A DNA stretch of 26,818 nt from a virus. Positions 252-21,916 of this stretch are shown piece by piece; the stretch's first letter is position 1, and the number at the start of each line of letters is the position of its first letter. The notes beneath the pieces are model-generated. The model was not told the origin of the DNA. It saw only the letters and a program-made list of their open reading frames with translations, and searched no databases. The translations under genes were made by a program, and so were the position numbers. Location: positions 1-26,818 of IMG/VR virus record IMGVR_UViG_3300035162_000762, one strand, 5' to 3'.

Positions 252-2345
252 TTATTTAGGGTAAGCTCCTCTACCTGCTTGTTTGTCTGTTGCTATTGCA
301 GCTTTCTTAGAGCCTCTTGGATTTCTTAAAGCGTAAGCAGGAATAGTTCTAGTCTTCTTATAGTTCTTAAGGTTTTTAGATGCCTCTGTTTTACTTTCTA
401 AGCGATACAAAACCCTAACCCATTTATGTTTGCAATAGATTCCACCTTTTAACTCAAAGATGTTATAACGCATACTAGGCTTATGTCTAAACTGCACATT
501 GACATCCTCGAAATTACTTGCCTTGTCAATATCCTCTATACGCCATACAGTTCCTTTACTACTCATAGCCATCATATTCTTGCAGAAGTCTCTAGATTCA
601 CCAGACTGCGACATCCCTTTAGCATATTTGTACCTGATTTTGTACAAACCATTTTTTGAATCTAAATCGCTATAAGCAGATCCATCAGCTTTTGAAGTAA
701 TAAAGTCTTTAAGTCCTACAAGGTGTTTGATTTTTGAAAGCGTTGTTTCCTCTTTTTCATTGATTAAAAAAGCTGCCCAATCTTCATTGCTATATTCTGA
801 GTCCTCTTCTAGCTCATCAACTACAACCCATTCGTCCCCCATTTGAGTTCCTGAACTTCCTAAAGAACCCAAAAGAATTTCTGTACTATCACTTGATAAC
901 TCAGTAGATAAGGGGACACAGTTTGGCACTTCTTTGCCATCTTTCATCTTAGTTCCTATCTGCTCATATCCATCCCAACAAGGCTCTTTTAAGGATATAT
1001 CGTGATTCTCGCAAGGCATAAAGTAAATAACGCCCTCAACTTCGTGTTCGTGATATCCACCACACCCGTCAGCCTCTGCTTTTGCAATAGCCTCCTCTTT
1101 TGTCTCAAATGCTTCTTTTCCATCTATTTTTTTAAGATTGAATTTCTGCATCTCAACGCCAGTTTCTTCCTCTATTTCTTCTTTGTCTTGAATGTCGGTA
1201 TTTACCTCAGTAAATTCTAACGGCTGTAAGGTCGTAAAGTATAGGTTTAAGGCAATATCGTTGTAAGCTAGTATATTGTCAAAGGAATCAATTAAAAGCT
1301 CCTGAAACGGTCTAATAACGGTGTTGTCCATTAATAGAGATGCTGTCTTAATCTCTTCAGCATTGTTTCCTAAACCGCTTTGGTCTTTAATACCTAAAAG
1401 CATAGGAGAAACAATACGGTGGGCTACCATTATTTTCTTAGTAGATTCTTCAGATAAGAACTGATATTGGTTATGGGCATCACTTAATTGTACAGGAGTT
1501 ATTTCCGCCTGACTTTCTTTGTTGTCATTAAAAGCAATAATGAACTTTCCTGCGTTGCTAGTCCCTGAAAACTTCTCAGCTATTTTATTCTCTATTGACC
1601 TGCGTTCCTCTTGGTTTGGAGTTCCATTATTAAAGTTAATCAGCATACTAGGAGCTAATCCGTTCAGTATGTTGTTTAAGTGATAATTTGAGACCTCTTC
1701 TTCTAGTTCAGCATACTGCAAACCACCTTGATAATCAACTGGAGAGTAGTAATAGAATCCAGACTTGTAGGGTTTAATGTAGTATATCTCAATGTTCTCT
1801 TTTGACATACCATATGCAGGTATTCTTAATGGATTATCGCTTCTCTTAATGTTCGGCCAATCCTTAAAGTAATAGTAAGCAGGAATATCACCGTCATCAT
1901 TGCACTTTTCAGCTCTTAATGTTTCAATAGGCATATGCTCTATTTGTGCAATACTCTTTCTATCCTTAGAATAGATAATCTGCATAGCACATTGCCCCAT
2001 TAATTTAAGGTCATAGCATAATTTTCTTACCACATCCTTTTTGAATAGGGAAATCATTTGAGCATACTCGTTTGGCTTACTACTTGAATCAGTAGCATTT
2101 AAACCCTTGCCATAAATAGCTTGACTAATTCCATTGATAGCGGCATTATTAGTCGGGCTTCCATTATATCTGTCTATGAGATATTGAAAGTAATTATTGT
2201 CCGCACCATATTCAATGTAATCTTCACCGCTTACCTCTTTGATTTCAGGGCTAGTATAAGTGCTTAGGTTAACAAAGCCAAACTCTGATACCTTAGAGGC
2301 TTTTTTAAACTGGCCTTTATCGTTTCTCAATTGTGTGTTTTTCAT
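252..2345 (-). CDS. Portal protein with C-terminal extension
   Basis: This 697-aa protein is most likely the portal, the ring at the capsid vertex through which DNA is packaged and ejected. Residues 1 to about 385 look like a portal core, with a conserved-looking stretch from about 300 (KKIMVAHRIVSPMLLGI) to 350. The rest is unusual. Residues 428-448 carry C428, H432, H434, C445 and H448, like a metal-binding knot. Residues 456-479 have a second Cys-spaced motif (CWDGYEQIGTK...VPNC). Residues about 565-650 form a separate domain with RDFCKNM, WRIEDI and CKHKWVRVLY, and the tail is very basic. The C-terminal domain resembles a minor head protein fused to the portal; this is inference. The start overlaps the stop of the previous gene as ATGA, implying coupled translation. 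It belongs to the unit opened by the late promoter at 2720-2753. Confidence 0.75.
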   Translation of the reverse strand: MKNTQLRNDKGQFKKASKVSEFGFVNLSTYTSPEIKEVSGEDYIEYGADNNYFQYLIDRYNGSPTNNAAINGISQAIYGKGLNATDSSSKPNEYAQMISLFKKDVVRKLCYDLKLMGQCAMQIIYSKDRKSIAQIEHMPIETLRAEKCNDDGDIPAYYYFKDWPNIKRSDNPLRIPAYGMSKENIEIYYIKPYKSGFYYYSPVDYQGGLQYAELEEEVSNYHLNNILNGLAPSMLINFNNGTPNQEERRSIENKIAEKFSGTSNAGKFIIAFNDNKESQAEITPVQLSDAHNQYQFLSEESTKKIMVAHRIVSPMLLGIKDQSGLGNNAEEIKTASLLMDNTVIRPFQELLIDSFDNILAYNDIALNLYFTTLQPLEFTEVNTDIQDKEEIEEETGVEMQKFNLKKIDGKEAFETKEEAIAKAEADGCGGYHEHEVEGVIYFMPCENHDISLKEPCWDGYEQIGTKMKDGKEVPNCVPLSTELSSDSTEILLGSLGSSGTQMGDEWVVVDELEEDSEYSNEDWAAFLINEKEETTLSKIKHLVGLKDFITSKADGSAYSDLDSKNGLYKIRYKYAKGMSQSGESRDFCKNMMAMSSKGTVWRIEDIDKASNFEDVNVQFRHKPSMRYNIFELKGGIYCKHKWVRVLYRLESKTEASKNLKNYKKTRTIPAYALRNPRGSKKAAIATDKQAGRGAYPK

Positions 2346-2719
2346 CGTACTGTGTAGGTATTATTAAAACCGTCATAATGTGTATACTGCCCTTCATTAA
2401 GTTTATAGTGAGAGCTTTCATTTAACTGGTTAACATCTTGGTCTGTACAAAATATTCTATCCTTGAAAATATCTTCTTTATACCCCGAAGCTGTTTCTGT
2501 GTATAAATGTATATCATAAAAATGGTTTTCAACTAATACAGGAGCAAAGGCTTGGCTGAACTGTAAGTAATTGCCCACCGTTGTAGCCGCTGCAATAGTA
2601 TATATCACGATAATGTTTGTACTATCGTCTCTGATAGACATTTTAAACGGAATACTGTCATACTTTCTAGGTATTACAGATATGGTTTGAGCTACTGCTG
2701 AGGTGGTTAATATTATCAT
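2342..2719 (-). CDS. Unknown virion-region protein
   Basis: This 125-aa protein is of unknown function. It begins MIILTTSAVAQTISVIPRKYD, then shows beta-rich sequence without an obvious motif. I recall similar small proteins next to structural genes in Bacteroidetes phages, so a minor virion role is plausible. It is the first gene after the late promoter at 2720-2753, and its ATG is only 5 bases downstream of the TACGTTATATA element. Its stop overlaps the portal start (ATGA), so the two are probably translated together. The N-terminus is moderately hydrophobic but is not a convincing signal peptide. Confidence 0.6.
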   Translation of the reverse strand: MIILTTSAVAQTISVIPRKYDSIPFKMSIRDDSTNIIVIYTIAAATTVGNYLQFSQAFAPVLVENHFYDIHLYTETASGYKEDIFKDRIFCTDQDVNQLNESSHYKLNEGQYTHYDGFNNTYTVR

Positions 2720-2753
2720 ACTCTTATATAACGTAAAAAAAAAATTAATTTGT
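2720..2753 (-). promoter_or_regulatory. Late-type promoter, portal unit
   Basis: On the minus strand ACAAATT (2753-2747) is followed by 11 bases, then TACGTTATATA (2735-2725) and 5 bases to the ATG at 2719. The same arrangement occurs at three other places in the virion region. It lies just downstream of the terminator at 2768-2797, so it would restart transcription for the portal unit. Its identity as a promoter is inferred from repetition, spacing and position. Confidence 0.65.
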
Positions 2754-2767
2754 AGAATTATATAAGC

Positions 2768-2797
2768 AAAAAAAAAGCCCCCGATTAAGGAGGCTTT
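2768..2797 (-). terminator. Rho-independent terminator after tail-tube gene
   Basis: Reading the minus strand, AAGCCTCC and GGGGGCTT form an 8-bp stem with one G-U pair and a 6-base loop, followed by a run of nine T. It lies 23 bases after the stop of the 2820-3383 gene. It separates the capsid/tail-tube unit from the portal unit. Confidence 0.85.
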
Positions 2798-2819
2798 ATT
2801 TTCTAACTTAAAAAGTTAA

Positions 2820-3383
2820 TTAAGCAGGTACAACTGCTGGAGGTGTGTTAGCTGGAGTAGGGTCAATTTGAACAGCACTTGCTGTTGCTTGTCCTGCTGC
2901 TAAGAACCAAGGAGCATTCTGCTCCATTCCTTCCATAGTTAAAGTGAAACCACTCAAGTCACCTGCTGCTGCGCCTGTAACAATAGTTCCACCTGTCATT
3001 TCCATTCCGTTGTTGAGACCACAAAGAAACTCATTACCATAGTAATCAACTACAACCGCATAAGGTCGTGTGATAGCTATTTGATAAAGTTCAGCACTAG
3101 TCAAAGCATCTAAAAATGGTAATGTAAGACTCAAAGTCTGAGTGTAAAAAGTAGTCCCGTTTTCTCTTGAAGAGGTAACAGTAGTTTCTAAACTAGAGCT
3201 GCCTTTTACTGGATAAGAAAACCATACTGGAGCAGGTGTATCATCTACAATAGTAGCCTCACCTGTTGCTGCTGCAAGTGTGATACTATCAATAGTACCA
3301 AAGTCTGCAAACCTTACTTCTTTAATGCCACCAAAAGCGGACTTACAAGGGACACTCCGCCCCGATGTTAATGCACAAGCCAT
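2820..3383 (-). CDS. Putative major tail (tube) protein
   Basis: This 187-aa protein is a candidate major tail-tube subunit, which polymerises around the tape measure. It begins MACALTSGRSVPCKSAFGGI, a start seen in a family common in Bacteroidetes siphoviruses (from memory), and has a beta-strand, Thr/Ser/Ala-rich composition throughout, including SSRENGTTFYTQTLSLTLPF at about 91-110. The gene is framed by strong terminators on both sides, which is typical of highly expressed structural genes. No late-promoter element precedes it, so it probably depends on readthrough from the capsid gene. The A-rich leader (TAAAAACATAAAATT before ATG) is typical for Bacteroidetes translation starts. A decoration protein is the main alternative. 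Confidence 0.6.
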   Translation of the reverse strand: MACALTSGRSVPCKSAFGGIKEVRFADFGTIDSITLAAATGEATIVDDTPAPVWFSYPVKGSSSLETTVTSSRENGTTFYTQTLSLTLPFLDALTSAELYQIAITRPYAVVVDYYGNEFLCGLNNGMEMTGGTIVTGAAAGDLSGFTLTMEGMEQNAPWFLAAGQATASAVQIDPTPANTPPAVVPA

Positions 3384-3402
3384 AATTTTATGTTTTTAGT
3401 TT

Positions 3403-3444
3403 TAAAAAAAAAGGGTGAGCGGATTAAAGCCACCCACCCTTTTC
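3403..3444 (-). terminator. Rho-independent terminator after capsid gene
   Basis: On the minus strand AAAGGGTGGG pairs with CTCACCCTTT (10 bp including one G-U pair) around a 13-base loop, followed by a run of T to 3404. It sits 18 bases after the capsid stop codon and 20 bases before the next start. It should partly uncouple tail-tube transcription from capsid transcription. Confidence 0.85.
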
Positions 3445-3461
3445 TAAGTATTATTAATTAA

Positions 3462-4442
3462 TTAAGCGTACTCAACAAGGTCAGAAGCGATCCCGAATTG
3501 AACAGCACTTGTGAAACGCATTACCATTCTCACGTTGTTAGAAGCATCCAAATCTGCCATATCTAAAACTTTTACAGCATTTGTGTCATTCAACAAACCT
3601 GTACCGAAGTATAAGTTAGAGCGTTGAGCTGCGTACATTTTGTTAACAGACATTCCCGGACAAACGAATATTTTAACTCCATTGACAGTTAAACTTCCGT
3701 TGTTCCACCATTGAGTTCCCATATTAGAAACACCATTAGCACCTAATCCATTTGCGCCAAAACCACCAAGAGCCTGTACATAGAATTTAGCTGCTGCTGA
3801 TCCAACGTAAAGGAATAAGTCTTCTTTTCCGTAAAGTGAAGCTGGGATAGCATCTACTACCTTAGACAATTCAGTTACAATGTTAGCTGCATCTAAACCA
3901 CCTGCGATAGCTGCTACTTGCTGACCTGCAGGAATATCTCCTGCTGCTGCTGATGCTGCGATTAGTTTCTCAAAACCATCAAAAGAGTTATTAGCTCCTG
4001 CGGCAGTATCTCCTTGCCAAATACAGAACTCAGTATTTTGTGCTACTTCAGAAGCTACGTGAGCAATCATAAAGTCAGAGAATTTAGGTGGCAATGCTTG
4101 ACCTAAACCATATCCCATTGACTGGCTTTCCCAATCGTTTACGAAGTCATACTTACATAATTGTAGGTTAACTTGTAGCTCAACTGGCTGAATGATACGC
4201 TCAGTAAGTGTTACAGAACTGTTTGGTGTAAAGTCACAAGATGCTGCACTTACTAGATTACCAGTAGCTAGTTTCTTGATCACCTCTTTGTAAGAGATGT
4301 TTGCTTTTACAGTTAGTCCGCCATCATCAATAGTTGATGCGCTTAAAAGAGCTGCTGCGATGTACTCACCTGCAAACTCACCTGCGTAGGTAGTCGTGAT
4401 GTTAACGGCAGTTGCCAATTGTACGTTTCTTGAATTACTCAT
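3462..4442 (-). CDS. Major capsid protein
   Basis: This 326-aa protein is the major capsid protein, the shell subunit of the head, probably with the HK97 fold. It has the expected size, an Ala/Gly-rich composition, and a near-complete lack of charged clusters. It lies directly after a scaffold-like gene and is followed by a strong terminator. The N-terminal part (MSNSRNVQLATAVNITTTYA) and the region around 105-130 (SMGYGLGQALPPKFSDFMIA) resemble capsid proteins of Bacteroidetes siphoviruses, recalled without a search. The leader is A-rich with no Shine-Dalgarno. Only 11 bases separate it from the scaffold gene, and both should be made from the late promoter at 5069-5100. Confidence 0.8.
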   Translation of the reverse strand: MSNSRNVQLATAVNITTTYAGEFAGEYIAAALLSASTIDDGGLTVKANISYKEVIKKLATGNLVSAASCDFTPNSSVTLTERIIQPVELQVNLQLCKYDFVNDWESQSMGYGLGQALPPKFSDFMIAHVASEVAQNTEFCIWQGDTAAGANNSFDGFEKLIAASAAAGDIPAGQQVAAIAGGLDAANIVTELSKVVDAIPASLYGKEDLFLYVGSAAAKFYVQALGGFGANGLGANGVSNMGTQWWNNGSLTVNGVKIFVCPGMSVNKMYAAQRSNLYFGTGLLNDTNAVKVLDMADLDASNNVRMVMRFTSAVQFGIASDLVEYA

Positions 4443-4453
4443 ATTCGTTTGAT

Positions 4454-5068
4454 TTATTTATTTAGTTTATTTAATACTCTTTCCATTGCTGTGGTATTGA
4501 ACTTACCTTTTGCAAATTCCATTCTTTTCTTAGGTGCGCTTTCTCCTTCAGGATTGTGCTTGATAGGAGCAGCAGCAGCTTCAGAAAATTCTTCTTTAAC
4601 AGTACGTGACTTTAAAACATTAGCAGTTTCTTCAGCCATTTCCTCTTCTTGCATTTTGCTTTCTTTGTCAGCTTTTAAATCTGCAATAGCATCTTCAAGG
4701 TTCTGGATTCTTTTCTCCATTCCTTCCCAGTCTCCAACCTCAGCCATTTCTTTTGACTCTTCTTCTTCTTTAAGGTCAGAAGTGATTTCTTCACCTTCTT
4801 CAGTTTCTTTAGCAGGAACTTCGTCAGCTACCTCTCTAACGTCAGCAATTACACCCTCTTCAGATACCACTAATAAGCGGCCATCTTCAAGCATATACTC
4901 ACCGACAGGCATAGCAACTTTCTCATCGTCTGTAACGATAAAAACCTCTTTGTCCTTTTCAAAAGAATCAGCACTTATTACGGTGCCGTTTTCTAGCTTC
5001 ATATCCATAAGTTTAACCTCAAGGTTTAGAAGTGTTTTGATTTGATTTAGCATTTCAGTTGATTTCAT
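4454..5068 (-). CDS. Scaffold-like capsid assembly protein
   Basis: This 204-aa, very acidic protein is probably the scaffold that organises capsid subunits before DNA packaging. Residues about 20-75 form a small beta-rich region (LENGTVISADSF, then MPVGEYMLEDGRLLVVSEEG). About 85-150 is a Glu/Lys-rich helical, probably coiled-coil segment. The C-terminus is basic and ends KGKFNTTAMERVLNKLNK, similar to the tail of scaffold-type proteins upstream of capsid genes in Bacteroidetes phages. Position between prohead protease and capsid supports the call. The ATG is 3 bases from the TACGTTATATA element of the late promoter. Confidence 0.65.
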   Translation of the reverse strand: MKSTEMLNQIKTLLNLEVKLMDMKLENGTVISADSFEKDKEVFIVTDDEKVAMPVGEYMLEDGRLLVVSEEGVIADVREVADEVPAKETEEGEEITSDLKEEEESKEMAEVGDWEGMEKRIQNLEDAIADLKADKESKMQEEEMAEETANVLKSRTVKEEFSEAAAAPIKHNPEGESAPKKRMEFAKGKFNTTAMERVLNKLNK

Positions 5069-5100
5069 ATGTATATAACGTAAGTATTGATAAAATTTGT
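5069..5100 (-). promoter_or_regulatory. Late-type promoter, scaffold/capsid unit
   Basis: The minus strand reads ACAAATT (5100-5094), 11 bases, TACGTTATATA (5082-5072), then CAT and the ATG at 5068. Spacing is identical to the other three copies. It lies between the 51-aa Cys-rich gene and the scaffold gene and would drive the most highly expressed virion genes. Confidence 0.7.
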
Positions 5101-5108
5101 ATTTTCAA

Positions 5109-5264
5109 TTAAGTTCTAGTGATTACTCCTATCCCTTGCGCCCTCATAGAGCCGTCACAGCACTCTCTAGAATAAGTGTTACTATCCCAACATAGACAAG
5201 CTCTTCCGCTGCCTTTAGGTGACGTTCTACTAGCTATAAATCTGCTATTGCTTTTACTTCGCAT
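5109..5264 (-). CDS. Cys-rich 51-aa phage protein
   Basis: This 51-aa protein has the motif CLCWDSNTYSRECCDGSMRA followed by QGIG. I recall a small conserved family in Bacteroidetes phages with the same pattern of C.C....TYS..CCDG....QGIG, of unknown function. The paired cysteines suggest metal binding or a disulfide-stabilised virion part. It starts at an ATG inside the last codons of the protease gene (11-base overlap), so it is probably translated with the protease. It ends just before the scaffold promoter. Confidence 0.75.
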   Translation of the reverse strand: MRSKSNSRFIASRTSPKGSGRACLCWDSNTYSRECCDGSMRAQGIGVITRT

Positions 5265-5859
5265 CTTCAGAAGTTAAAATGTTTACTATTTCCTTTAGGA
5301 TTTTTTCATCCTCTGATAAATCTGCTTTAGCCTCTTCTTTAGGTTTACCCATCTTGTCAGCGAAGTATCCTTCAATCGAGAAGCCTTTGACCTTATTTGT
5401 TTTGACATACTCCTGCCATATCTCTTCGTTATTAACCTTGACTGCACCCATCCAAGTTCCAATAGGGACATTAAGGCCATACTTTCTTGATTTGTCTTGT
5501 ACCTCGTCTTCAACTATCCAGCTCTCAACTAAAGTAAGACCATTAAGTGCTTGATCGTGTTCTAAGGTTGAGTTGTTTTGATAACCGTTTTTAAGGTACA
5601 TCTGTGATGCCTTAACTATCGTGTCTTTTGAAAAGAAAATGTAATACTCACCCTCTTCACCATTTCTGTATATTGGCTTATTAGGTATAAGTAAAGCACC
5701 TAGCAGTATCTTTTTTTCCTTGTCAACCTCAGCGAGTTTTATCTCTTCTGAATTTAAGGTTACAAAGTCAGACTCTATTGCAGGGTTTTCTACGATTGAG
5801 ATAGCTTCGATTCCTGCATCTTCTTGATCCTCGTCTAGTATTAGTTCTATAATCTTCAT
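5254..5859 (-). CDS. Prohead protease, XkdF-like
   Basis: This 201-aa protein resembles XkdF-type putative phage serine proteases (Peptidase_S78_2), which trim scaffold and capsid proteins during head maturation. It begins MKIIELILDEDQEDAGIEAI followed by SIVENPAIESDFV, a start typical of the family. The fold core at 52-170 has GALLIPNKPIYR, then TLEHD with candidate catalytic H101 and GFSIEGYF with candidate S161. Residues 167-201 are charged and helical. It directly precedes the scaffold and capsid genes, as expected. Its ATG lies 3 bases from a late-promoter element. Family assignment is by recognition of these motifs. Confidence 0.8.
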   Translation of the reverse strand: MKIIELILDEDQEDAGIEAISIVENPAIESDFVTLNSEEIKLAEVDKEKKILLGALLIPNKPIYRNGEEGEYYIFFSKDTIVKASQMYLKNGYQNNSTLEHDQALNGLTLVESWIVEDEVQDKSRKYGLNVPIGTWMGAVKVNNEEIWQEYVKTNKVKGFSIEGYFADKMGKPKEEAKADLSEDEKILKEIVNILTSEDAK

Positions 5860-5891
5860 ATTTATATAACGTATTTATTTGTAATTTTTGT
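5860..5891 (-). promoter_or_regulatory. Late-type promoter, protease unit
   Basis: The minus strand reads ACAAAAA (5891-5885), 11 bases, TACGTTATATA (5873-5863), then AAT and the ATG at 5859. The upstream box partly lies in the last bases of the tape-measure region, just after its stop. It is one of four copies with the same spacing. Confidence 0.7.
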
Positions 5892-5893
5892 GT

Positions 5894-7972
5894 TTATCCT
5901 ACTGTTGCACCTGTAATAATACCTCTGTCTAAGGCTTGAGCGGTGGTCACATCACTTGCTACTACATAAGTTTTTATAGGTTGATTGGTTTGGCTTCCTA
6001 TGGCATCAGCTAATTGATTACTTCCGCTAGCTCCTACTGTGTTAAATTCAGGCGGAGCAGAAGGTATTGAAGGGGTTGCGGGTCTACCGCCAGTACTTGG
6101 TGGCGGCGTACTTGCACCTACTGGTTTTGTACTTGCTATTTTCTTGATATTAACTGCTGCAAAAGCACCCGCCAAACCTGCTTGAATATATGGATAAGCA
6201 GGGAACAGCCCTGTAACAGGACTAGCAGAAGCAGTAGTAAACGCATTTTGAACGGCTTGATAACCGCTTATTGTAGCTTGACCTATTGCCATAGCTTTAC
6301 CTAATTTACTTCCCTCTCCTGCTATCTCACCGATTAAAGCAAACCCTTGTTTTGCAGAATCCAGCTTGGCATTTATTACATCTCTATTTAGTTGCTTTTC
6401 CTTTTCCGCCTTTGCCTCCTCTCTAGCTAAGTCTTCATCATCAAATTGTTTTTGTTTATCTGCTAACGCTTTTAAACCAGCAGCTACAATGTCACCTAAA
6501 ATAGTTTCATCAGTTATTTTTTGTTCTATGGCTTGAGCTAATAAAGCGTCATAGTGTTCTTGTATTTTCTCAAGTTCTAACTCTCTTTTTTCATCTTCAT
6601 AAAGTGCTGTCGCATCTCTGATGTTCTTTTTTAAAGCCTCTAATTCTTTTAGCCTTTGAATCTCAGCGTCATCTATCTCTTTTTTGTTAGCTGCAACAAT
6701 ATCATCTGCTGCAACTTTTGCCGCTGCTTCTTCAGCTCTTAAAGCTATTACCTGTGCAGTTACCTCTCTGTCTTTTTGTAATTTAGCTGTTTCCAGATTT
6801 ATTAGCTCGGCTTTTAGAGCAACCTCTTCGTCAAGCGCATCTTTAGTAGCAGCCCCTAGTGAGTTTTCCGCAATCTTAGCATCTAACCTTAACTGAGCAG
6901 CTTCAATCTCTTTTTGTGTTATTTCATCTTCTAGCCTTCCTGCTTCTTCTAAAAACTCAATACGTTGATTTAAACTAAAGTTTTCTTTATCAACTGCTTT
7001 GTTTAACAAATCGGCTCTGTCTCTGTTTGCTTTTGCTCTATCTAAGATAATTTGTCTATCTAGTTTATCAGCTTTAGCTCTTTGGTCGGCTATTTGTTGT
7101 GCAATTTTAGCTTCTTTAGATAGTTCTGTAATTAAATTTTTAGTGCTTTTTATTAATGCTTCTGTAATCATTACAGTTGGGTTTAAAGCTCTGTTAAGAC
7201 CTACCACGCCTTTCCCTGCATCCTTTAAAGCACCTCTAAAATCTCCACTAAATAGTTTTTTAATAGCTGAACCCATAAACCCTAAGCTCTCTATTGCTAG
7301 GTCTATCTTATCCATCACAAATTCTGTGATAGTATTTCCAAAGTCTTTTATAAGTTGTACTGGATCTGTAAATAAACTAATTAAAATATCACCTATAAGT
7401 GCTATCCTATCAATGAACACGTCCATAATAACGCCCATCACAGTCATTATCTTGTTAAATTGATTTTGCCCCTTTTCTGAACTGGTAAAAGCAGCTCCTA
7501 ATGAAGTAATAGCAATTAGCAAAGCTCCAATACCTGTTCCGATTATAGCGATTTTCATCAACTTTAACCCTTTGGTAGCAGCCATAATTGATGTCCTCAT
7601 TCCACCTAAACCAGAAATAACGCCACCAGTTTGAGCATCTAATATTCCAAGTACACCGCCGTAATCAGCTGTGTTTTCTTCTGCTTCTTTTAAAGTTTTA
7701 TTAGCTTTTTTTCTTTCTGTCGTTACATTTTTTAATCCATCGACCTCTTCGTCTAACTTATCTTTAGTTTCTTTTATCTTATTATTTAAAGACTTTCTCC
7801 TTGCAAATTCTGTTTTGGTAGTTGAAGCAAGTTCTTTTTCGAAACTTTCTAATTCAGATTTTAACCCCTCAATTAAACTTTCTTGAGCACGAAAAGAAGC
7901 ATTCAATTCTTCTACATTAGCTTGTGCTTCTGAAGTAGATATGTTTAAGGTATATTCTTTAACTACTGCCAT
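5894..7972 (-). CDS. Tail tape measure protein
   Basis: This 692-aa protein is the tape measure, which sets tail length and leaves the virion during DNA ejection. It has the classic layout: a coiled coil at about 10-95 with heptads rich in Glu/Lys, a hydrophobic segment at about 138-165 (MKIAIIGTGIGALLIAITSL), a second at about 180-205, a long charged helical region at about 285-540, a Gly/Ala-rich hydrophobic region at about 540-615, and a Pro/Ser-rich linker near 620-650. At 692 residues it would suggest a comparatively short tail. It overlaps the upstream 46-aa gene by 10 bases. Confidence 0.85.
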   Translation of the reverse strand: MAVVKEYTLNISTSEAQANVEELNASFRAQESLIEGLKSELESFEKELASTTKTEFARRKSLNNKIKETKDKLDEEVDGLKNVTTERKKANKTLKEAEENTADYGGVLGILDAQTGGVISGLGGMRTSIMAATKGLKLMKIAIIGTGIGALLIAITSLGAAFTSSEKGQNQFNKIMTVMGVIMDVFIDRIALIGDILISLFTDPVQLIKDFGNTITEFVMDKIDLAIESLGFMGSAIKKLFSGDFRGALKDAGKGVVGLNRALNPTVMITEALIKSTKNLITELSKEAKIAQQIADQRAKADKLDRQIILDRAKANRDRADLLNKAVDKENFSLNQRIEFLEEAGRLEDEITQKEIEAAQLRLDAKIAENSLGAATKDALDEEVALKAELINLETAKLQKDREVTAQVIALRAEEAAAKVAADDIVAANKKEIDDAEIQRLKELEALKKNIRDATALYEDEKRELELEKIQEHYDALLAQAIEQKITDETILGDIVAAGLKALADKQKQFDDEDLAREEAKAEKEKQLNRDVINAKLDSAKQGFALIGEIAGEGSKLGKAMAIGQATISGYQAVQNAFTTASASPVTGLFPAYPYIQAGLAGAFAAVNIKKIASTKPVGASTPPPSTGGRPATPSIPSAPPEFNTVGASGSNQLADAIGSQTNQPIKTYVVASDVTTAQALDRGIITGATVG

Positions 7973-8103
7973 TTGATAGTGTTTTTAATAATTTTTGAAG
8001 CACTCTTCAAGTCTTTAGGTAAAGCATCTTTCCCCTGTGCAATTCTTATGTTTTCAGTTTCTCCCTTTGCTACTTGTAGCAGCTCAATTATATTACTTAT
8101 CAT
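7963..8103 (-). CDS. Small 46-aa protein between tail genes
   Basis: This 46-aa protein begins MISNIIELLQVAKGETENIR and ends with a basic helix. It starts at an ATG overlapping the stop of the 8100-10331 gene (ATGA) and ends 10 bases inside the tape-measure gene, so it is embedded in a translationally coupled chain. Function is unknown. A minor tail or tape-measure chaperone role is possible from position alone. Confidence 0.65.
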   Translation of the reverse strand: MISNIIELLQVAKGETENIRIAQGKDALPKDLKSASKIIKNTIKWQ

Positions 8104-10331
8104 ACCTTGTTTAATAGTTCCATTTTACTTTTACCGCTTTGTAGCTCAGTAGTAATGGAGTTAATTCTATACGTCTTAGTGTTTATCGTAAAAGTGTCAT
8201 TTAACTTAAAGTTGTATATAATCCTTAGAGGCAAATAAGACGTAATCTGTGTTAGCCTTCTAGCTTGATTGAATACGTCAATGATATACTCGCTATGGTA
8301 TACACTAAAAAGAGTGTCTGTGAACTGGTCAGAATTTACCTCGTACTCGTTTAGCTCATTGTTAAAGTGGATGTTTTCTTTACCAGTAGATGATGACTGA
8401 TATAAAGCGTTTGAAGGTATCCAATACGCATCCTCACTACTTGCAGCGTTAGAGCTTGAACGGTAACTAATATCAGTACCACCTGATTGTCTTATGCCGT
8501 AAAAGATTAAAGGCTTACCGAGATATGGCTGTGCATTTTCATTTACACTCCAGCCCCATTGGATTGTAGTTAGTATGCTATTGGTTACATTTACTAATCT
8601 CTCATACTTCATATGCTCAAAAGGAGCTATGACTTTATAAATCTCTGTTGATGCGTTATAGTTTAAACCACCTGTACCATCAGTATTTGTACCTCCAATG
8701 TATTTTAAAGCACCCCAAGATGTTCCGAATAGTTGGTTATGCTGCTTTGCTAGATAAGTTCCTGTGCCTTCATATGCGTAGACAATTTCCTTGTATGGTA
8801 AAGCTATGTTTACCTCACTTTGGTTTGTATCTACGTATTGAGATATGTTATAATCTATGGGCGCATCTAAGCCCTCTATATCTGCTGAAGTATAGTAACT
8901 ATAATTGGAAGCCCCTAAAGTCGTTAAGGAGGCTTTTAAACAGCTTAGAGATTCAACTGTTCCACCGTCAGCTACTACACGAGCGTTAAAAGCATTCGCT
9001 ATTGGACTTAATGTTGATTCTAATGGTCGTACAACTATGGTTCCTGAATCGTTGACATAAGCTACTAGACTGAACATCTTAAACAAACCAGTAAGGAATG
9101 AGACAATAGTTACGTCAGGTATCTGTTGAGGTATTTGAAAGTCAAAAGATTCTAAAGCTGTAAAGGTGGTTGATGTAGCTGTATCAGTATAAAAGCCTGT
9201 TCCTGTTTCACCTTCTATTTCCCACTCAATAGAACTGAATGCTATTGTTCCTGAACTTTGAGGGTGTACAATACTTACCGCATAAACACCATTTGCAACC
9301 AAGAAATTAAAAGGAAATAAAACATTCAGAGTTCCCGCTGCCTGTGTTGATGTGAATACCGTACTACCATTTAAACTAACTATAACTGAATAAGGCTTTG
9401 CAGCATCAGCAGCTATGGGTGTGCAGGTTATATTTGCAGTTAGTATTCTATTAGGTGCAGTTACTAAAGCCGCAGGTATGGTGATTGTAGAATAACCAAC
9501 TATTATTTGAGTGGCACTAGCAGTCCAATTATTTACTAGGCTTTCGTATGTTAATATCTGTTGGTCAGGTTGTACCGCTCCGCTTTTTCTGTGTAACCAC
9601 ATATACAGGTTATAGAAACCAGGATTTGACGTACTAAAAAAATCTTCTGAAAAGACTAGGTTGGTATTGTAGCCGTTTGCAACGGTGTACTTTATCTCTA
9701 TCTCTTTAATGATTTCATAAAGCCTTAGAGCGAACTTTAACTGATTCCAATATACACCCTGATGATGACTATTATGATACCAAAGGTTGTTACTGCCTTG
9801 TGCGTTTACTCCTGATTCAAAGTATAGCCTATCTGTGTGCGTGATTAAAGGAGTAATGACATAAGCGTTTGCACCTGCTGGTTGTTGCATCTTATCTAAC
9901 ACCCCTGCTGCACTATAAGTCAGGTCATATTTAGAGTTACTAAAAGCTAGTGAACCAAGTTTGTCTTCTCCTAAGATGTCGGTCAATTCAACTGTGTTTC
10001 CGAAAAATGTAATCTTATAGCTGTGTACTAGGTTATTCTTTAAGCTAACACCTTCTAGTTTTATAAGGCCAGTTTGAAAGGGTAAAGTGTTTAGCTCAAT
10101 TCTACCTGCTTTTTTCTTTCTAGCATCATAACCATCTACAATATTGAAATTGTAATAGTGCTGAAATATCTTGTTATTTGTCTTACTAGCGGGTACAGAG
10201 AATGTCTTAGTAAAGGCTGTGAAAACCTTATCTAATTGCTTAATGTTTTGAATGGTCTGTGTAAGAGATACCGTTTCATCCTTAAACAAATCAAGCCTTT
10301 CGCTTTCAATATATAGCTGTAATTCTTGCAT
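8100..10331 (-). CDS. Large tail protein, tip or fibre candidate
   Basis: This 743-aa protein is probably a virion component of the tail. It opens with a conserved-looking region, MQELQLYIESERLDLFKDET, then TFSVPASKTNNKIFQHYYN and an Arg/Lys patch, and continues as a long beta-rich protein with abundant Ser/Thr/Asn/Tyr, ending in a charged QSGKSKMELLNKV. I recall similar proteins near tape-measure genes of Bacteroidetes siphoviruses, where they are candidates for tail tip or baseplate parts. Being upstream of the tape measure is unusual for tip genes. No enzymatic motif is evident. A 16-base gap separates it from the 341-aa gene upstream. Confidence 0.6.
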   Translation of the reverse strand: MQELQLYIESERLDLFKDETVSLTQTIQNIKQLDKVFTAFTKTFSVPASKTNNKIFQHYYNFNIVDGYDARKKKAGRIELNTLPFQTGLIKLEGVSLKNNLVHSYKITFFGNTVELTDILGEDKLGSLAFSNSKYDLTYSAAGVLDKMQQPAGANAYVITPLITHTDRLYFESGVNAQGSNNLWYHNSHHQGVYWNQLKFALRLYEIIKEIEIKYTVANGYNTNLVFSEDFFSTSNPGFYNLYMWLHRKSGAVQPDQQILTYESLVNNWTASATQIIVGYSTITIPAALVTAPNRILTANITCTPIAADAAKPYSVIVSLNGSTVFTSTQAAGTLNVLFPFNFLVANGVYAVSIVHPQSSGTIAFSSIEWEIEGETGTGFYTDTATSTTFTALESFDFQIPQQIPDVTIVSFLTGLFKMFSLVAYVNDSGTIVVRPLESTLSPIANAFNARVVADGGTVESLSCLKASLTTLGASNYSYYTSADIEGLDAPIDYNISQYVDTNQSEVNIALPYKEIVYAYEGTGTYLAKQHNQLFGTSWGALKYIGGTNTDGTGGLNYNASTEIYKVIAPFEHMKYERLVNVTNSILTTIQWGWSVNENAQPYLGKPLIFYGIRQSGGTDISYRSSSNAASSEDAYWIPSNALYQSSSTGKENIHFNNELNEYEVNSDQFTDTLFSVYHSEYIIDVFNQARRLTQITSYLPLRIIYNFKLNDTFTINTKTYRINSITTELQSGKSKMELLNKV

Positions 10332-10347
10332 CTACGTTATTTCTATG

Positions 10348-11373
10348 TTATCTCACGTTATTTATGTAATCAAACGCATCTTCAAAGTCTATGGTGTATT
10401 CTATCAAACGGTCATTGAGTGAAGTCTTGTAAGTCATATTTGATGTTCTAACTGTGACAGGTATAATCTCAGGCGTGTTAGGCTGCTGAACTTTCTCCCT
10501 AGTTATCCATACATTCTCACTTAAAAGAAGCTCCTCAAAATAGGCGTTTGTCCATTCAGGGTAGTAGCCACTTGACAAGGTTCTTGATTGCTTGGCCTTT
10601 GTGTTTAATAACTTTACCGTTGGATTACTTTGTGAGTATGTAGCATCAGGCAATAATGTATTTGCTTGGTAGCTTTCATTTGACTTGCTTATCTGCTTGA
10701 CTTTCTTTAAGAAAAACCATAGGTCTTGTAATACGCCAAACCTATTTATAAAAGCAACCTTCGTACCCACGCCATACTTAGTGCAGTTTATTCTATTGAT
10801 GGTAAGTAATACGTTGTTAGTTATTATAAAGGTATCTTCAGCTCGATAAAATTCGTAAGAAACAACTCCAGCCGCTGACATATGAGCAGCATATCCGCTA
10901 TAATCTTCAGGCACAAATATTTCAAAGTCATCATTAGTCGCTGCTGTTGCAGGAGTCTTTTCTGCTAGTAACCAAGTAGCCTGGTTAGAAGCTCTGTTTG
11001 CATATGGTATGCTTGAGTTTGCGCCATCTATAAATTTACTGTACCCTTCGTATCCATCTCCACTTAATGTGCTTACAGGAGAACCCACAGCACTACCTCC
11101 TGCGTTTATTTCTGAATAGAAAGTTATTGTTGAGGTAAAGGTTATTTTCTGTGAAACTGGGGCTGCAAATGAATCTGAAATAGTTATATCTAAATAGTCC
11201 CTGAGTAATTCTGCTATCTCAAATACAACTGGCACACTTGTAACCACATCTTTAACGATGGTGTATACCAATGTCCCGTCAACACTTAGTAATAATTTAG
11301 CTGATTTAACTAAGCTGTTTCCAGTAGTTGCCTGTGCGTATAGTGGGGTTCTTAAACCGTAATTAGTTGGCAT
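10348..11373 (-). CDS. Unknown tail protein (341 aa)
   Basis: This 341-aa protein is of unknown function. It begins MPTNYGLRTPLYAQATTGNS and is rich in beta-prone Thr/Ser/Val, with TLVYTIVKDVVTSVPVVFEI around 32-51 suggesting a beta-sandwich domain. A more polar, helical section follows with FLKKVKQISKSNESYQ around 223-238, and the end is acidic and aromatic. It lies between the gp10-like gene and the large tail protein and is transcribed with them. I treat it as a tail structural protein by position. A tail tube or tail tip protein are both possible. Confidence 0.5.
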   Translation of the reverse strand: MPTNYGLRTPLYAQATTGNSLVKSAKLLLSVDGTLVYTIVKDVVTSVPVVFEIAELLRDYLDITISDSFAAPVSQKITFTSTITFYSEINAGGSAVGSPVSTLSGDGYEGYSKFIDGANSSIPYANRASNQATWLLAEKTPATAATNDDFEIFVPEDYSGYAAHMSAAGVVSYEFYRAEDTFIITNNVLLTINRINCTKYGVGTKVAFINRFGVLQDLWFFLKKVKQISKSNESYQANTLLPDATYSQSNPTVKLLNTKAKQSRTLSSGYYPEWTNAYFEELLLSENVWITREKVQQPNTPEIIPVTVRTSNMTYKTSLNDRLIEYTIDFEDAFDYINNVR

Positions 11374-11376
11374 ATC

Positions 11377-11910
11377 TTATTTCTTTGTTCCTAGTATTAT
11401 GGCATTCTCTATATCAAGACTGAATGCTTCAAGCATATCGTCAGGTAATCTTTTTAATCCCGCTTCAAATGGCTTAGTAAAAAACAGGTTTGCTTTCAAT
11501 CCTTTATTGTATATGCTTCTGGATATAATAAAGCTCATAGCTTCATATGATAAAAAACGTCCAGTCTTTTTGTCGTTCCATTGGAACTGCTTTTGTCTTA
11601 GCCACTTATTAATTCCTTTAGTCAAACCACCCTTTGGCCCAGTTCCGCTACCATACTTAAAGTCTGATAATGCAGCAGCAGTTTGTGGGTAAGTAGATGT
11701 TTTTCCCTTTACACCTTTGTCTACAAAAGCACCATAGCCCTCCATTAAGAAGTCCAATAAAAACAAATTAGCTTCTTGTTCTAGGTTGTATTCTAAGGAA
11801 TTGTAAAGATCTCCACCACCTTTGTTGTCTTTTGTAAGATTTGATTTAGATTGTTGTACTACGTATTTAGCATATTTATCTAATATCTCGTCAAGGTTTT
11901 CAAAATTCAT
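11377..11910 (-). CDS. HK97 gp10-like tail completion protein
   Basis: This 177-aa protein resembles HK97 gp10-type head-tail joining proteins. Features are an N-terminal helix (NFENLDEILDKYAKYVVQQS), a loop with GGDLYNSLEYN, a conserved-looking GYGAFVDKGVKGK near 75-88, and a C-terminal helical section after FFTKPFEAGLKRLPDD. I chose the ATG at 11910 because it overlaps the upstream stop as TAATG. An upstream start at 11961 would add 17 residues buried in the previous gene. Such proteins typically lie next to the tail terminator gene, as here. Confidence 0.65.
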   Translation of the reverse strand: MNFENLDEILDKYAKYVVQQSKSNLTKDNKGGGDLYNSLEYNLEQEANLFLLDFLMEGYGAFVDKGVKGKTSTYPQTAAALSDFKYGSGTGPKGGLTKGINKWLRQKQFQWNDKKTGRFLSYEAMSFIISRSIYNKGLKANLFFTKPFEAGLKRLPDDMLEAFSLDIENAIILGTKK

Positions 11911-12380
11911 TAGCAGATATATATATCGTTGTAAATCATTATATCCATAGTCGCTGACCATCCTGCTAGTTGATTCTCAAACCTGTCATAAAATGGAGTC
12001 AGGTTAGGGCTGCTATCTAATTGGTACATCTCTGTGTATAGCGTACCCATTCTCAGGCGTTGAATTAATCTATTTAAAACAGCTAATTGAGTGTTTAAAA
12101 TATCTTGCACATCGTTATTCCCTTTGAAACGATCAACTGTTTGGCTTTTTGACTGATCAACTATGTCACAAGCAAGGACAGTAATGTTAAATCTTAGTAC
12201 CTGCTCTTCGTCTACTACGTTATTGATTATAATATGTCCAAGAGGGAATATGTCCTGCTTGTTCAAATTAACATCCGTAATGTCACCCGTAGTTACGGTG
12301 TTGATGTTTTCATCACCTAGTAACTCATTTTTGATTGTTTCGGTTAACTGGTAAAAACCTCTTACACCTTGATTTGCCAT
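11910..12380 (-). CDS. Putative tail terminator / neck protein
   Basis: This 156-aa protein is probably a tail completion or terminator protein that caps the tail tube at the neck. Features are an alpha/beta layout, MANQGVRGFYQLTETIKNEL at the start, a DIFPLGHIIINNV strand, and the C-terminal FENQLAGWSATMDIMIYNDI, which resembles proteins at this position in Bacteroidetes siphoviruses. It is translationally coupled to both neighbours: it starts 1 base within the end of the frameshift extension and ends overlapping the gp10-like start. Confidence 0.55.
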   Translation of the reverse strand: MANQGVRGFYQLTETIKNELLGDENINTVTTGDITDVNLNKQDIFPLGHIIINNVVDEEQVLRFNITVLACDIVDQSKSQTVDRFKGNNDVQDILNTQLAVLNRLIQRLRMGTLYTEMYQLDSSPNLTPFYDRFENQLAGWSATMDIMIYNDIYIC

Positions 12381-12637
12381 TACTTAAAGTTCTTTTTAAT
12401 TTGTTTTGCTTCTAGTTCGTTTTTCTCTTTTTCAAATGTCAACATCGTAAAGCAAGTGTGTATATTTAGTTCAGAGATATCTTCAAATCTTCTAACATCT
12501 CCTTTAGCGAGTGTATAAACTGATTGATACCAACCCCATTTTTTTCCGAAGCTAGATATTGCGTCAAGGCTATCGTTTCCCCCTCCTCCAAATAGTCCGT
12601 CATAACCTTCGATAAGTCTAGACCTAAATTCCACAAA
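12380..12637 (-). CDS. Frameshift extension of tail chaperone (T-like)
   Basis: This reading frame of 85 codons has no good start of its own and lies in the -1 frame relative to the upstream chaperone gene. A -1 slip on a run of ten T would join it after codon 160 of that gene, giving a product of about 245 residues. The encoded segment contains KKWGWYQSVYTLAKGDVRRF and ends with ELEAKQIKKNFK. A tryptophan-rich KWGWY segment at this place is familiar to me from tail chaperone fusions in Bacteroidetes phages, and the design matches lambda gpG/gpGT. A GTG at 12634 could give an 84-aa stand-alone protein, but that seems less likely. Confidence 0.7.
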   Translation of the reverse strand, partial: FVEFRSRLIEGYDGLFGGGGNDSLDAISSFGKKWGWYQSVYTLAKGDVRRFEDISELNIHTCFTMLTFEKEKNELEAKQIKKNFK

Positions 12638-13116
12638 AAAAAAATTGAAGATAAAACGGCACTCATTGGCATATCCAAAAGCGCACCCTCATTACCCAGA
12701 ACATACTTATCAATATTGTACTTTTCTTTTAGCTTAACTATGATGGGTCTATAAAGCACGTTCATAGCCTTCTCCATATTGTCCCAGTCCCCTATAAAAG
12801 TGTCAAGGTCTATGTACTCTCCTAGAGTTAATTCATCTAGCTGAGGTTGGAAACCATATTCCACTTCATTTAACTCAAATCTTTTTACCAGAATAGGCTT
12901 CTCTTCAAATATCTTTGATATACTATTTGATATTTCAGTAGAGTCTTTGACTTGTAACAGCATAACCTTTTCTAATGAAACGCCACAAAAGATTTCAATC
13001 ATTTTAGCGTTTAAGAACCTTTCATCTTGAATAGAGTCTTCTAGCTTTAGATATTTTTTGTATTGTCTTAAAGTGATATCACTTAAGGAACTAGGTATTT
13101 TAATTTTGATTGCCAT
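12466..13116 (-). CDS. Tail assembly chaperone (G-like)
   Basis: This 216-aa protein is the unshifted product of the chaperone pair that binds the tape measure during tail assembly. It begins MAIKIKIPSSLSDITLRQYK and is helical throughout, with LTLGEYIDLDTFIGDW at about 96-111. After the T run (codons 158-161, ATT TTT TTT TTG) this frame continues for 55 codons and ends LKEMLEDLKISLN. The ATG is 3 bases from a late-promoter element and this is the first gene of the long tail operon. Confidence 0.75.
   Translation of the reverse strand: MAIKIKIPSSLSDITLRQYKKYLKLEDSIQDERFLNAKMIEIFCGVSLEKVMLLQVKDSTEISNSISKIFEEKPILVKRFELNEVEYGFQPQLDELTLGEYIDLDTFIGDWDNMEKAMNVLYRPIIVKLKEKYNIDKYVLGNEGALLDMPMSAVLSSIFFLWNLGLDLSKVMTDYLEEGETIALTQYLASEKNGVGINQFIHSLKEMLEDLKISLN
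12635..12644 (-). other. Slippery T10 run for -1 frameshift
   Basis: The minus strand has ten consecutive T, framed as A TT TTT TTT TT G, so two adjacent TTT codons can re-pair after a -1 slip. The -1 frame is open for 85 codons beyond it. Transcriptional slippage on T10 is an alternative mechanism, and an assembly error in the homopolymer is the trivial one. Confidence 0.7.
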
Positions 13117-13148
13117 ACTTATATAACGTAATTAATTGAAATTTTTAC
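13117..13148 (-). promoter_or_regulatory. Late-type promoter, tail operon
   Basis: The minus strand reads GTAAAAA (13148-13142), 11 bases, TACGTTATATA (13130-13120), then AGT and the ATG at 13116. The upstream box is the most divergent of the four. It begins 14 bases after the T tract of the terminator that ends the acidic cassette, so it restarts transcription for about 7 kb of tail genes. Confidence 0.7.
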
Positions 13149-13161
13149 AATATTAAAAGTA

Positions 13162-13195
13162 ATAAAAAAAAGAGCAGCCATTTCTGACTGCTCTC
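13162..13195 (-). terminator. Rho-independent terminator of acidic cassette
   Basis: On the minus strand GAGCAGTC pairs with GGCTGCTC (8 bp, one G-U pair) around a 6-base loop, followed by eight T. It lies about 37 bases after the stop of the 76-aa gene and directly precedes the late promoter of the tail operon. Confidence 0.85.
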
Positions 13196-13231
13196 TGCGT
13201 TAACTTCGGTGTAGTTTATTTACTAGGACGA

Positions 13232-13937: not shown

Positions 13938-13973
13938 CTAATATACAACGCTTTTAGTTATAAACAAAACCGT
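13938..13973 (-). promoter_or_regulatory. Early host-type promoter, acidic cassette
   Basis: On the minus strand TTG (13967-13965), 19 bases, TATATTAG (13945-13938) fits the Bacteroidetes promoter TTG-N19-TAnnTTTG with one mismatch in the core. The 34-bp stretch 13940-13973 matches 20107-20140 at 31 positions, including an identical 18-bp block AGTTATAAACAAAACCGT (plus strand) over the -33 box. The start site is expected near 13932. Confidence 0.75.
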
Positions 13974-20146: not shown

Positions 20147-20569
20147 CTATTGTTCATCAAAATTTAAGTTGATCCTTACAGCATCGTTTTCTTGTAAAAG
20201 GTAAACATCTTTCAATATTCTTTTCTTTGTCCACATTGTAGTATCAGGACAATATTTCTTTACTGTCTCAGGCAGCTTGAGCGTATTGAGATAGTACAGG
20301 AAATTTCCTTTAGGGTCAAACACATAAAATATCTTTATTATGTTTTCATCTATTCTCATTAAAGCATCGTACTTGTCTTTCTCAAGCATCTTAGTGTCAT
20401 AATGTTTATTGCGGAACTTCATTTCAATCACACAGGGGAAACCTTTGGGTGTTTTGCCAATGGCATCGTATCGTGAATATCCTTCACCAGCCCATTCTAA
20501 TTCCCAGCCCTCAGAATTGAGTAATAAAACAACGGCCTGTTCCCACTTATGAACCTTACTTATCCCCAT
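20147..20569 (-). CDS. PD-(D/E)XK nuclease-like protein
   Basis: This 140-aa protein has the core of a PD-(D/E)XK nuclease: D35 (YSRYDAIGK), then E49-x-K51 (CVIEMKFRN), with strands on either side and a basic YDTKMLEKDKYDAL helix at 57-70. VRR-NUC or Holliday-junction-type enzymes with this length occur in phages. It ends just before the early promoter and overlaps the upstream gene by 14 bases. Function in recombination or host DNA breakdown is possible; no substrate is indicated. Confidence 0.65.
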   Translation of the reverse strand: MGISKVHKWEQAVVLLLNSEGWELEWAGEGYSRYDAIGKTPKGFPCVIEMKFRNKHYDTKMLEKDKYDALMRIDENIIKIFYVFDPKGNFLYYLNTLKLPETVKKYCPDTTMWTKKRILKDVYLLQENDAVRINLNFDEQ

Positions 20570-20780
20570 TCCTAGTGTATGTCCAAACTAGGTTTAAGTC
20601 TTGTATCCACTTGTTTATTGTTTTCGGGCTACAAGTACAAGGTTTATAATAGGTATGTTTGAAGTATCTCGAGTGCAAGTCACAAACCAATTCAAACTCT
20701 GTTGGGCTGATAACGTCCTTGTTTTCTGCCATTCGAAATTTAGTCCAGTCGTTATAGTCTGTATCATTGAATTTTACCAT
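20556..20780 (-). CDS. Unknown 74-aa protein with CxC motif
   Basis: This 74-aa protein has FELVCDLHSRYFKHTYYKPC followed by TCSPKTINKWIQDLN. I recall small proteins with this pattern near replication genes in Bacteroidetes phages, without known function. The three Cys and two His may bind a metal, and the C-terminal WIQDLN helix resembles an HTH half. The 3' end overlaps the nuclease gene by 14 bases. Confidence 0.6.
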   Translation of the reverse strand: MVKFNDTDYNDWTKFRMAENKDVISPTEFELVCDLHSRYFKHTYYKPCTCSPKTINKWIQDLNLVWTYTRNGDK

Positions 20781-20921: not shown

Positions 20922-21422
20922 TTAAAACTTATTTAGTTTATTAATTGGCAAAACAGTTGCGTTTGCTCTTGTAAATTTAAAATTACCAAAATCTTTCCCT
21001 TTAGCAATAAATTCCCCTTTTTCAAAAAAATCAGAGCAACTAAACCATCCCAGAATCCAACCCTTGCTGTAATCTTTTAATATTCTTAAAAAGATATAAT
21101 AATCAGCTTTTTGTTTATGTACCCCATCTGTTTTGTGTGAGTTAACTGTACAGAGGTAATTTTCTAATGGCTTGGACTTGCAACTTATAGTTTTTATTTC
21201 TAATCTCTTTCCTTTATTAGAAAGCAAATCGTATTCAAAACAATCAACGTCTTTTTTTATTTTCAGATATTGCATTACAACTCTTTCGCCAATGTAACCT
21301 TCTAGTATTCTTGTCTTCTCAAAACCAAATTTGCTAGGTTCTGGATTACCTGATCTTTTGACTTTCTCTAGTTTATTTAAAGCATAATCAATAGTCTCTT
21401 TTTCTATTACAAATTCAATCAT
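20922..21422 (-). CDS. PD-(D/E)XK nuclease-like protein, second
   Basis: This 166-aa protein has a conserved helix GYIGERVVMQYL (42-53), then D65 and E75-x-K77 (YDLLSNKGKRLEIKTIS), the usual spacing for PD-(D/E)XK enzymes. A further Lys/Asp segment, ADYYIFLRIL, fits the third strand. It is thus a second nuclease-like protein in the same gene block as 20147-20569, with little similarity to it. The start overlaps the stop of the sigma-like gene. Confidence 0.6.
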   Translation of the reverse strand: MIEFVIEKETIDYALNKLEKVKRSGNPEPSKFGFEKTRILEGYIGERVVMQYLKIKKDVDCFEYDLLSNKGKRLEIKTISCKSKPLENYLCTVNSHKTDGVHKQKADYYIFLRILKDYSKGWILGWFSCSDFFEKGEFIAKGKDFGNFKFTRANATVLPINKLNKF

Positions 21423-21916
21423 AATAGTTTTTTGAGTTTTTCCTGAACTCTGTTATAAGTCCAATAAAGTGAGTAATATTTTATTTTTGATTTTCTTGAA
21501 AATTCAGCAATGCTTTCTCCGCCATTTATTATTTCAAACACTTTTCTGTCATACCAATACATAGTGCTAAGTTCTTTTTCAATTATAGAATAAGCAGCTT
21601 CATAATTAACATCAGTAGCAGAGTAATGAGTTTCTCCATTGTCATTTATGTGATCCTCTAAGTGAATGATGCTGATGTTTTTATGCTTTCTTTTTAAATC
21701 GAGATATAGAGTTTTCAATGTTTTGAAAATGTAATAATAGTTTACATCGTCATTGTACATTATGTTATTGCCTTCTTTCTCTAATTGAAAATGTATTTTT
21801 ATGTACATCTCCTGAGTAATATCTTCAGCTATTCTTTTAGGACATCCAAATGTTGTAACAATGTCAACCCAAGTATTATGTTTTTTAGCTATTAAGGTTA
21901 TTACTTCTTTGCTCAT
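21419..21916 (-). CDS. Sigma-70-like factor
   Basis: This 165-aa protein resembles a small ECF-type sigma factor. Residues about 10-45 fit region 2.1: WVDIVTTFGCPKRIAEDITQ then EMYIKIH, close to the A.DL.QE....W pattern. A middle segment YYYIFKTLKTLYLDLKRKHK fits region 2.3-2.4. Residues about 120-165 fit the region 4 helix-turn-helix: DRKVFEIINGGESIAEFSRK and YYSLYWTYNRVQEKLKKLL. Such factors are common in Bacteroidetes phages. It is the natural candidate to recognise the four late elements (RYAAAWW-N11-TACGTTATATA). It lies in the replication block, so it would be made before the virion genes. Confidence 0.7.
   Translation of the reverse strand: MSKEVITLIAKKHNTWVDIVTTFGCPKRIAEDITQEMYIKIHFQLEKEGNNIMYNDDVNYYYIFKTLKTLYLDLKRKHKNISIIHLEDHINDNGETHYSATDVNYEAAYSIIEKELSTMYWYDRKVFEIINGGESIAEFSRKSKIKYYSLYWTYNRVQEKLKKLL

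Follow-up and report, generated by a model that had tools for sequence, protein, structure and literature searches.

A putative late promoter class and a candidate phage sigma factor for its recognition in a family of marine Bacteroidota siphoviruses

The two-box element and the genes behind it

The window, a virus record of IMG/VR with 26,818 bases (IMGVR_UViG_3300035162_000762) and probably a fragment, was analysed for a two-box element that stands directly before four of its genes. The recognisable genes are located on the minus strand, as seen from the open reading frames (ORFs), and all features given below with a range in dots lie on this strand. Site A (2720..2753) consists of ACAAATT, 11 nucleotides (nt), TACGTTATATA, AGAGT and the ATG of a gene for a protein of 125 amino acids (aa). 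This gene (2342..2719), an ORF whose N-terminus MIILTTS is conserved in relatives, is followed by the portal gene (252-2345; phrog_33693, 4.7e-97). Site B (5069..5100) presents ACAAATT, 11 nt, TACGTTATATA, CAT and the ATG of a scaffold-like gene (4454..5068), recognised by its position, the acidic composition and a weak match to phrog_24921; the capsid gene (3462-4442) comes next. In site C (5860..5891) ACAAAAA, 11 nt, TACGTTATATA and AAT precede the ATG of the head-maturation protease gene (5254..5859; phrog_3017 and phrog_34096). Site D (13117..13148) is composed of GTAAAAA, 11 nt, TACGTTATATA, AGT and the ATG of a 216-aa tail gene (12466..13116), which matches phrog_32199, a family with no assigned function, heads the tail block by position and has an N-terminus conserved in relatives. 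The initial annotation had the copies open the portal, scaffold/capsid, protease and tail units; the units stood, except that the first gene behind site A is the 125-aa gene just before the portal.

Four exact copies of TACGTTATATA were present in the window, all on the gene strand (2725-2735, 5072-5082, 5863-5873 and 13120-13130), versus a mean of 0.02 in dinucleotide-preserving shuffles, none of which reached four copies (0/100). The four minus-strand two-box sites before an ATG described initially were thus confirmed, and the same spacing was recovered at each of them: TACG begins exactly 11 nt after the upstream box, and gaps of 5, 3, 3 and 3 nt separate TACGTTATATA from the ATG at sites A, B, C and D. 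With up to two mismatches, TACGTTATATA alone had 15 matches against 14.3 expected by chance. This 11-mer alone was not enriched, hence the signal resides in the full element. Terminator-like hairpins precede site A (2774..2797) and site D (13169..13196), site C follows directly after the stop codon of the tape-measure gene and site B directly after that of a short ORF. A terminator or gene end had been attributed to three of the four sites; this context was found at all four.

From codon 2 onward, third codon positions were the most variable ones in the site-opened genes of the relatives, weakly so for the scaffold gene. Judged by this codon pattern, the ATGs at the four sites are genuine start codons.

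Conservation in related viruses

A scan with the capsid protein yielded 80 loci (86-97% identity) as relatives. The motif search in relatives that the initial annotation had proposed revealed 93 exact copies of the 11-mer TACGTTATATA, every one of them on the gene strand. In the relatives the element reads ACAAAWT-N13-CGTTATATA, with both boxes fixed at the same four genes and a spacer sequence that turns over. Alignment of the contexts identified CGTTATATA as the invariant core and (T)ACAAAWT as the upstream box, of which CAAA is the core; the leading TA of TACGTTATATA varies. Conservation was quantified on 148 distinct sites of the relatives, collected without use of the CAAA box. The CAAA columns contained 1.0-1.6 bits each and the mid-spacer columns mostly 0.0-0.3 bits, a range exceeded by some AT-rich spacer columns adjoining the core. 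A scoring matrix built from these sites, with the window left out, gave 33.5, 30.4, 29.5 and 27.8 bits for sites A, B, C and D, and at most -0.1 bits elsewhere on both strands. The initial statement that no full copy exists elsewhere in the window holds by this measure; a search for further full copies, within genes or on the opposite strand, found none. In IMG/VR, the two-box-plus-ATG pattern had at least 120 matches versus 50 for a control with reversed core, and none of these 50 were paired within one contig.

Most long relatives bear sites at the same four genes, and five relatives have an extra site before a ParB-like gene. At internal genes of the long relatives, e.g., capsid and portal, no site was found. 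The distance between element and ATG is specific for the gene: 3 nt at site C (65 of 67 relatives' sites) and at site D (27 of 28), 4-5 nt in most cases at site A, mostly 6 nt at site B, and 1 or 3 nt at the ParB-like gene. This distance differs by gene (1-7 nt) while the box-to-box spacing stays fixed. A repeated promoter class at the starts of structural and tail units, as initially proposed, is supported by relatives that keep the genes, the strand and both boxes while the spacer diverges. A clade comprising L189 (G020) and L204/L205 (G028) has lost the CG, and the same genes are preceded there by NNTTATATA or TATTATACT; in this clade the region 2.4 of the sigma factor described below is altered.

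A phage sigma factor of the ECF type

The ORF at 21419..21916, coding for 165 aa and overlooked in the initial annotation, is on the basis of its homologs and modelled fold a divergent sigma factor of the extracytoplasmic function (ECF) type (group IV). It is the proposed reader of the four sites. A sigma region 2 is indicated by matches of its family members to PF04542 (Sigma70_r2; 36 of 44 members, best 6e-5) and TIGR02937 (sigma70-ECF; 34 of 44, best 1.2e-10). For the window sigma itself no Pfam match was found, and its NCBIfam matches to ECF sigmas were weak and sub-threshold (best 8.5e-4). A profile search of PDB had the mycobacterial SigE on top, at an E-value of no better than 0.015. 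The AlphaFold2 model (mean predicted local distance difference test 84, predicted template modelling score 0.46, helices at 105-164) retrieved E. coli sigmaE and M. tuberculosis sigH, sigL and sigE as top Foldseek matches (probability near 1, E ~1e-3), which cover most of the sigmaE, sigH and sigL chains. A region 4-like C-terminal helix bundle is predicted by the model, and neither region 1.1 nor region 3.

Each of the 25 long relatives has the sigma gene, also the five long contigs that had been selected solely by their capsid gene; the three records lacking it are fragments of 15-18 kb. Among the early genes, only the sigma gene and the gene of a 74-aa CxC protein located nearby (20556..20780; no Pfam or PHROG match) occurred in 25 of 26 comparison genomes, counts that are limited by the sensitivity of single-sequence tblastn. 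Genes for DnaA-C-like and ParB-like proteins were detected in 13 of the 26. A search in 84,980 cellular genomes found no relatives of the phage sigma, so that a mere host gene is not what the phage carries. The divergence of the promoters was correlated with that of the sigma (rho 0.59, Mantel p 0.001), but at least as well with that of the portal protein. Co-occurrence and geometry make a pairing of this sigma with the element likely.

Proposed late transcription and alternative explanations

In promoters of ECF sigmas, approximately 15-17 nt separate the -35 box from the -10 box, which is short and often reads CGT. The element presents a CAAA core and CGTT at a distance of 15 nt, conserved in the 148 distinct sites of the relatives. 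The -35/-10-like spacing noted initially stood as far as two spaced boxes are concerned, but ECF-sigma spacing fits better than a sigma70 -35/-10 arrangement. In our proposal, host RNA polymerase with the phage ECF-type sigma would bind CAAA(W) as -35 and CGTT(ATATA) as -10 element, and transcription would start approximately 6-9 nt past CGTT, a distance taken from phage 7-11. The starts would then fall at 2724-2721 (A), 5071-5068 (B), 5862-5859 (C) and 13119-13116 (D), with predicted leaders of 2-5 nt for A and of 0-3 nt each for B, C and D, overall about 0-6 nt. At the window sites the ATG is located 12-14 nt past the C of CGTT, hence leaders of about 0-5 nt are expected and the late units would be leaderless or near-leaderless. 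Leaderless genes of bacteria have been predicted from TA-like signals located approximately 12 bp in front of the start (PMC3160421). The promoter geometry and the conserved ATG, taken as the true start, indicate that the late mRNAs are probably leaderless or nearly so. We infer the late timing from the gene content and the exact start point from the analogy to phage 7-11. On this evidence it is quite probable that the four sites represent one late promoter class in a marine family of Bacteroidota siphoviruses, recognised by the RNA polymerase of the host with the phage ECF-type sigma and predicted to yield near-leaderless late mRNAs.

Several observations weigh against this interpretation. 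Transcript 5' ends were not found for any member of the family. If TATATA served as -10 box in sigma70 geometry, the start would be placed inside or past the ATG. The divergence of the portal predicts promoter divergence at least as well as that of the sigma (partial correlation ~0), and the sigma adds nothing beyond portal, protease or tail-gene divergence; terminase alone, which is swapped in some members, was a clearly poorer predictor. The sigma of L146 lacks the conserved D and R of region 2.4 and CGTTATATA is kept in this locus, consequently a tie of the CG loss in G020 and G028 to changes in these two residues was dropped. The window sigma scores below every curated cut-off, its assignment rests on homologs and fold, and its Foldseek matches combine E ~1e-3 with a low whole-chain template modelling score (0.3-0.44). 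Some far relatives are without a clear site at one gene, e.g., site C in G017-G019 and G023, and in others the site is farther from the ATG (D in G024, C in G026); a distance of 12 nt was seen among the far relatives. The promoter architecture of the family is not absolute.

Variant host promoters of the sigma-ABfr type (TTTG ... TAnnTTTG), perhaps with help from an activator encoded by the phage, e.g., the DnaA-C-like or the ParB-like protein, are an unlikely explanation of the sites. TACGTT fits TAnnTT, and Bacteroidota promoters with TTTG/TANNTTTG and 4-5 nt to the start would also yield a short leader (PMC6847099). However, CG is conserved in the relatives where the host consensus is free, and the leading TA is not; the TTTG with which the -7 box ends is also missing from the late sites. 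A scan of the window for TTTG-N17-21-TANNTT revealed the absence of TTTG at -33 of all four sites, and the combination of TTTG near -33 with TANNTTTG near -7 occurred at none of them. The presence of the two candidate activator genes in only 13 of 26 comparison genomes weighs against such help. A reading of the sites as sigma70 (-35/-10) or sigma-ABfr (-33/-7) promoters was rejected on conservation and spacing. Ordinary host-type promoters in the window (TTTG-N19-TATATT) look different: two near-identical copies, TTTTGTTTATAACTNAAA...GTTGTATATT, at 13968 and 20135 on the minus strand are likely early promoters.

Less credit is due to a translation-initiation or regulatory leader element acting in an mRNA transcribed from upstream. 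The sites directly adjoin start codons, and in this phylum, which lacks Shine-Dalgarno sequences, A-rich upstream bases matter (PMC6847099). But a pair of boxes separated by roughly two turns of the helix, with a free spacer, suits DNA binding, the copies stand at unit starts behind terminators or gene ends and are missing at the internal capsid and portal genes, and the ATG distance varies between genes at a fixed box spacing. Slightly less probable still is a host ECF sigma as the reader instead of the phage protein. Bacteroidota encode many ECF sigmas, but a host reader leaves the sigma gene in every long member unexplained, and this phage sigma has no cellular relative. Repeated operators and packaging sites are found in phage genomes, but a role of the repeats as binding sites in packaging, replication or repression, without promoter function, is the least probable of the explanations, in view of their strict orientation, their fixed distance to the starts of late genes that are the same throughout the family, and the extra copy before the ParB-like gene.

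Comparison with known phage systems

Late promoters read by phage ECF-type sigmas are already known from phages 7-11 and phiEco32; what is new is their occurrence in this host phylum, together with the sequence and the predicted near-zero leaders. The sigma gp47 of phage 7-11 (SaPh711_gp47) reads GTAAtg-(16)-aCTA at late genes, with measured starts 6-9 bp away (PMC8948821). Like the system proposed here, it combines a phage-encoded sigma with a bipartite element of similar spacing at several late genes; it differs in sequence and in the host, Salmonella, and the present sites, located 1-7 nt from the ATG, leave next to no space for a leader. In phiEco32, gp36 directs middle and late transcription from promoters with the single element tAATGTAtA (PMC8948821), and its homologs were called ECF sigmas (PMC7881722). 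Shared with the present proposal is an ECF-type phage sigma that targets the polymerase of the host to genes of the middle and late phases, whereas two conserved boxes are present here instead of one. The promoters of sigma-ABfr, the primary sigma of Bacteroidota (PMC6847099), have their counterpart in the likely early promoters of the window.

Among named phages, the only close ones found were P12024S and P12024L of Nonlabens (genus Inhavirus), which are distant relatives. The capsid protein of P12024S is 26% identical to that of the window, and its gp33, annotated as Sigma-70 region 2, is homologous to the window sigma family (E 5.4e-10). In the P12024S genome, several genes, gp35 among them, are preceded at 2-3 nt by ACAAA ... 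CGTTAATA, and the protease site is CGTTACTA. A homologous sigma and an element near gene starts are shared; in contrast to the present family, the -10 core is CGTTAATA and not CGTTATATA, the spacing is one nt shorter, and further genes bear the element. The 74-aa CxC protein matches the C-terminus of gp35 (hhalign E 4e-5). It is speculatively considered as a candidate partner of the sigma.

A full-text search of open-licence papers retrieved no description of a class of late promoters, or of its reader, for Bacteroidota siphoviruses. In Flavobacterium johnsoniae, 87% of the predicted transcripts have leaders longer than 10 nt (PMC6847099), thus near-zero leaders would be exceptional in the phylum. 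A wider proposal, which we neither favour nor disfavour, is that the late programme of an entire, widespread virus family depends on a dedicated phage ECF sigma and promoters fused to start codons; capsid, portal and tail units would form a conserved leaderless regulon where most mRNAs have leaders, maybe with the 74-aa protein as sigma partner. If the sigma-promoter pair is confirmed, the mRNAs of the structural genes would have nearly no leader, in a phylum that is devoid of Shine-Dalgarno sites, leaderless initiation in Bacteroidota would become directly testable, and a promoter both compact and orthogonal would be available for these bacteria. The analysis provides a concrete candidate sigma-promoter pair for an abundant uncultured marine family, together with P12024S as an isolated and sequenced relative for testing.

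Further observations

In three relatives (L157, L172 and L173; G001, G011 and G012) the large terminase is approximately 30% identical to that of the window while sigma and late promoters are conserved; by sequence comparison this is a swap of the terminase module. Two adjacent minus-strand genes of the window (15482-16225 and 16222-16938) match TET-associated glycosyltransferases (PF20691), which suggests that the phage DNA is modified.

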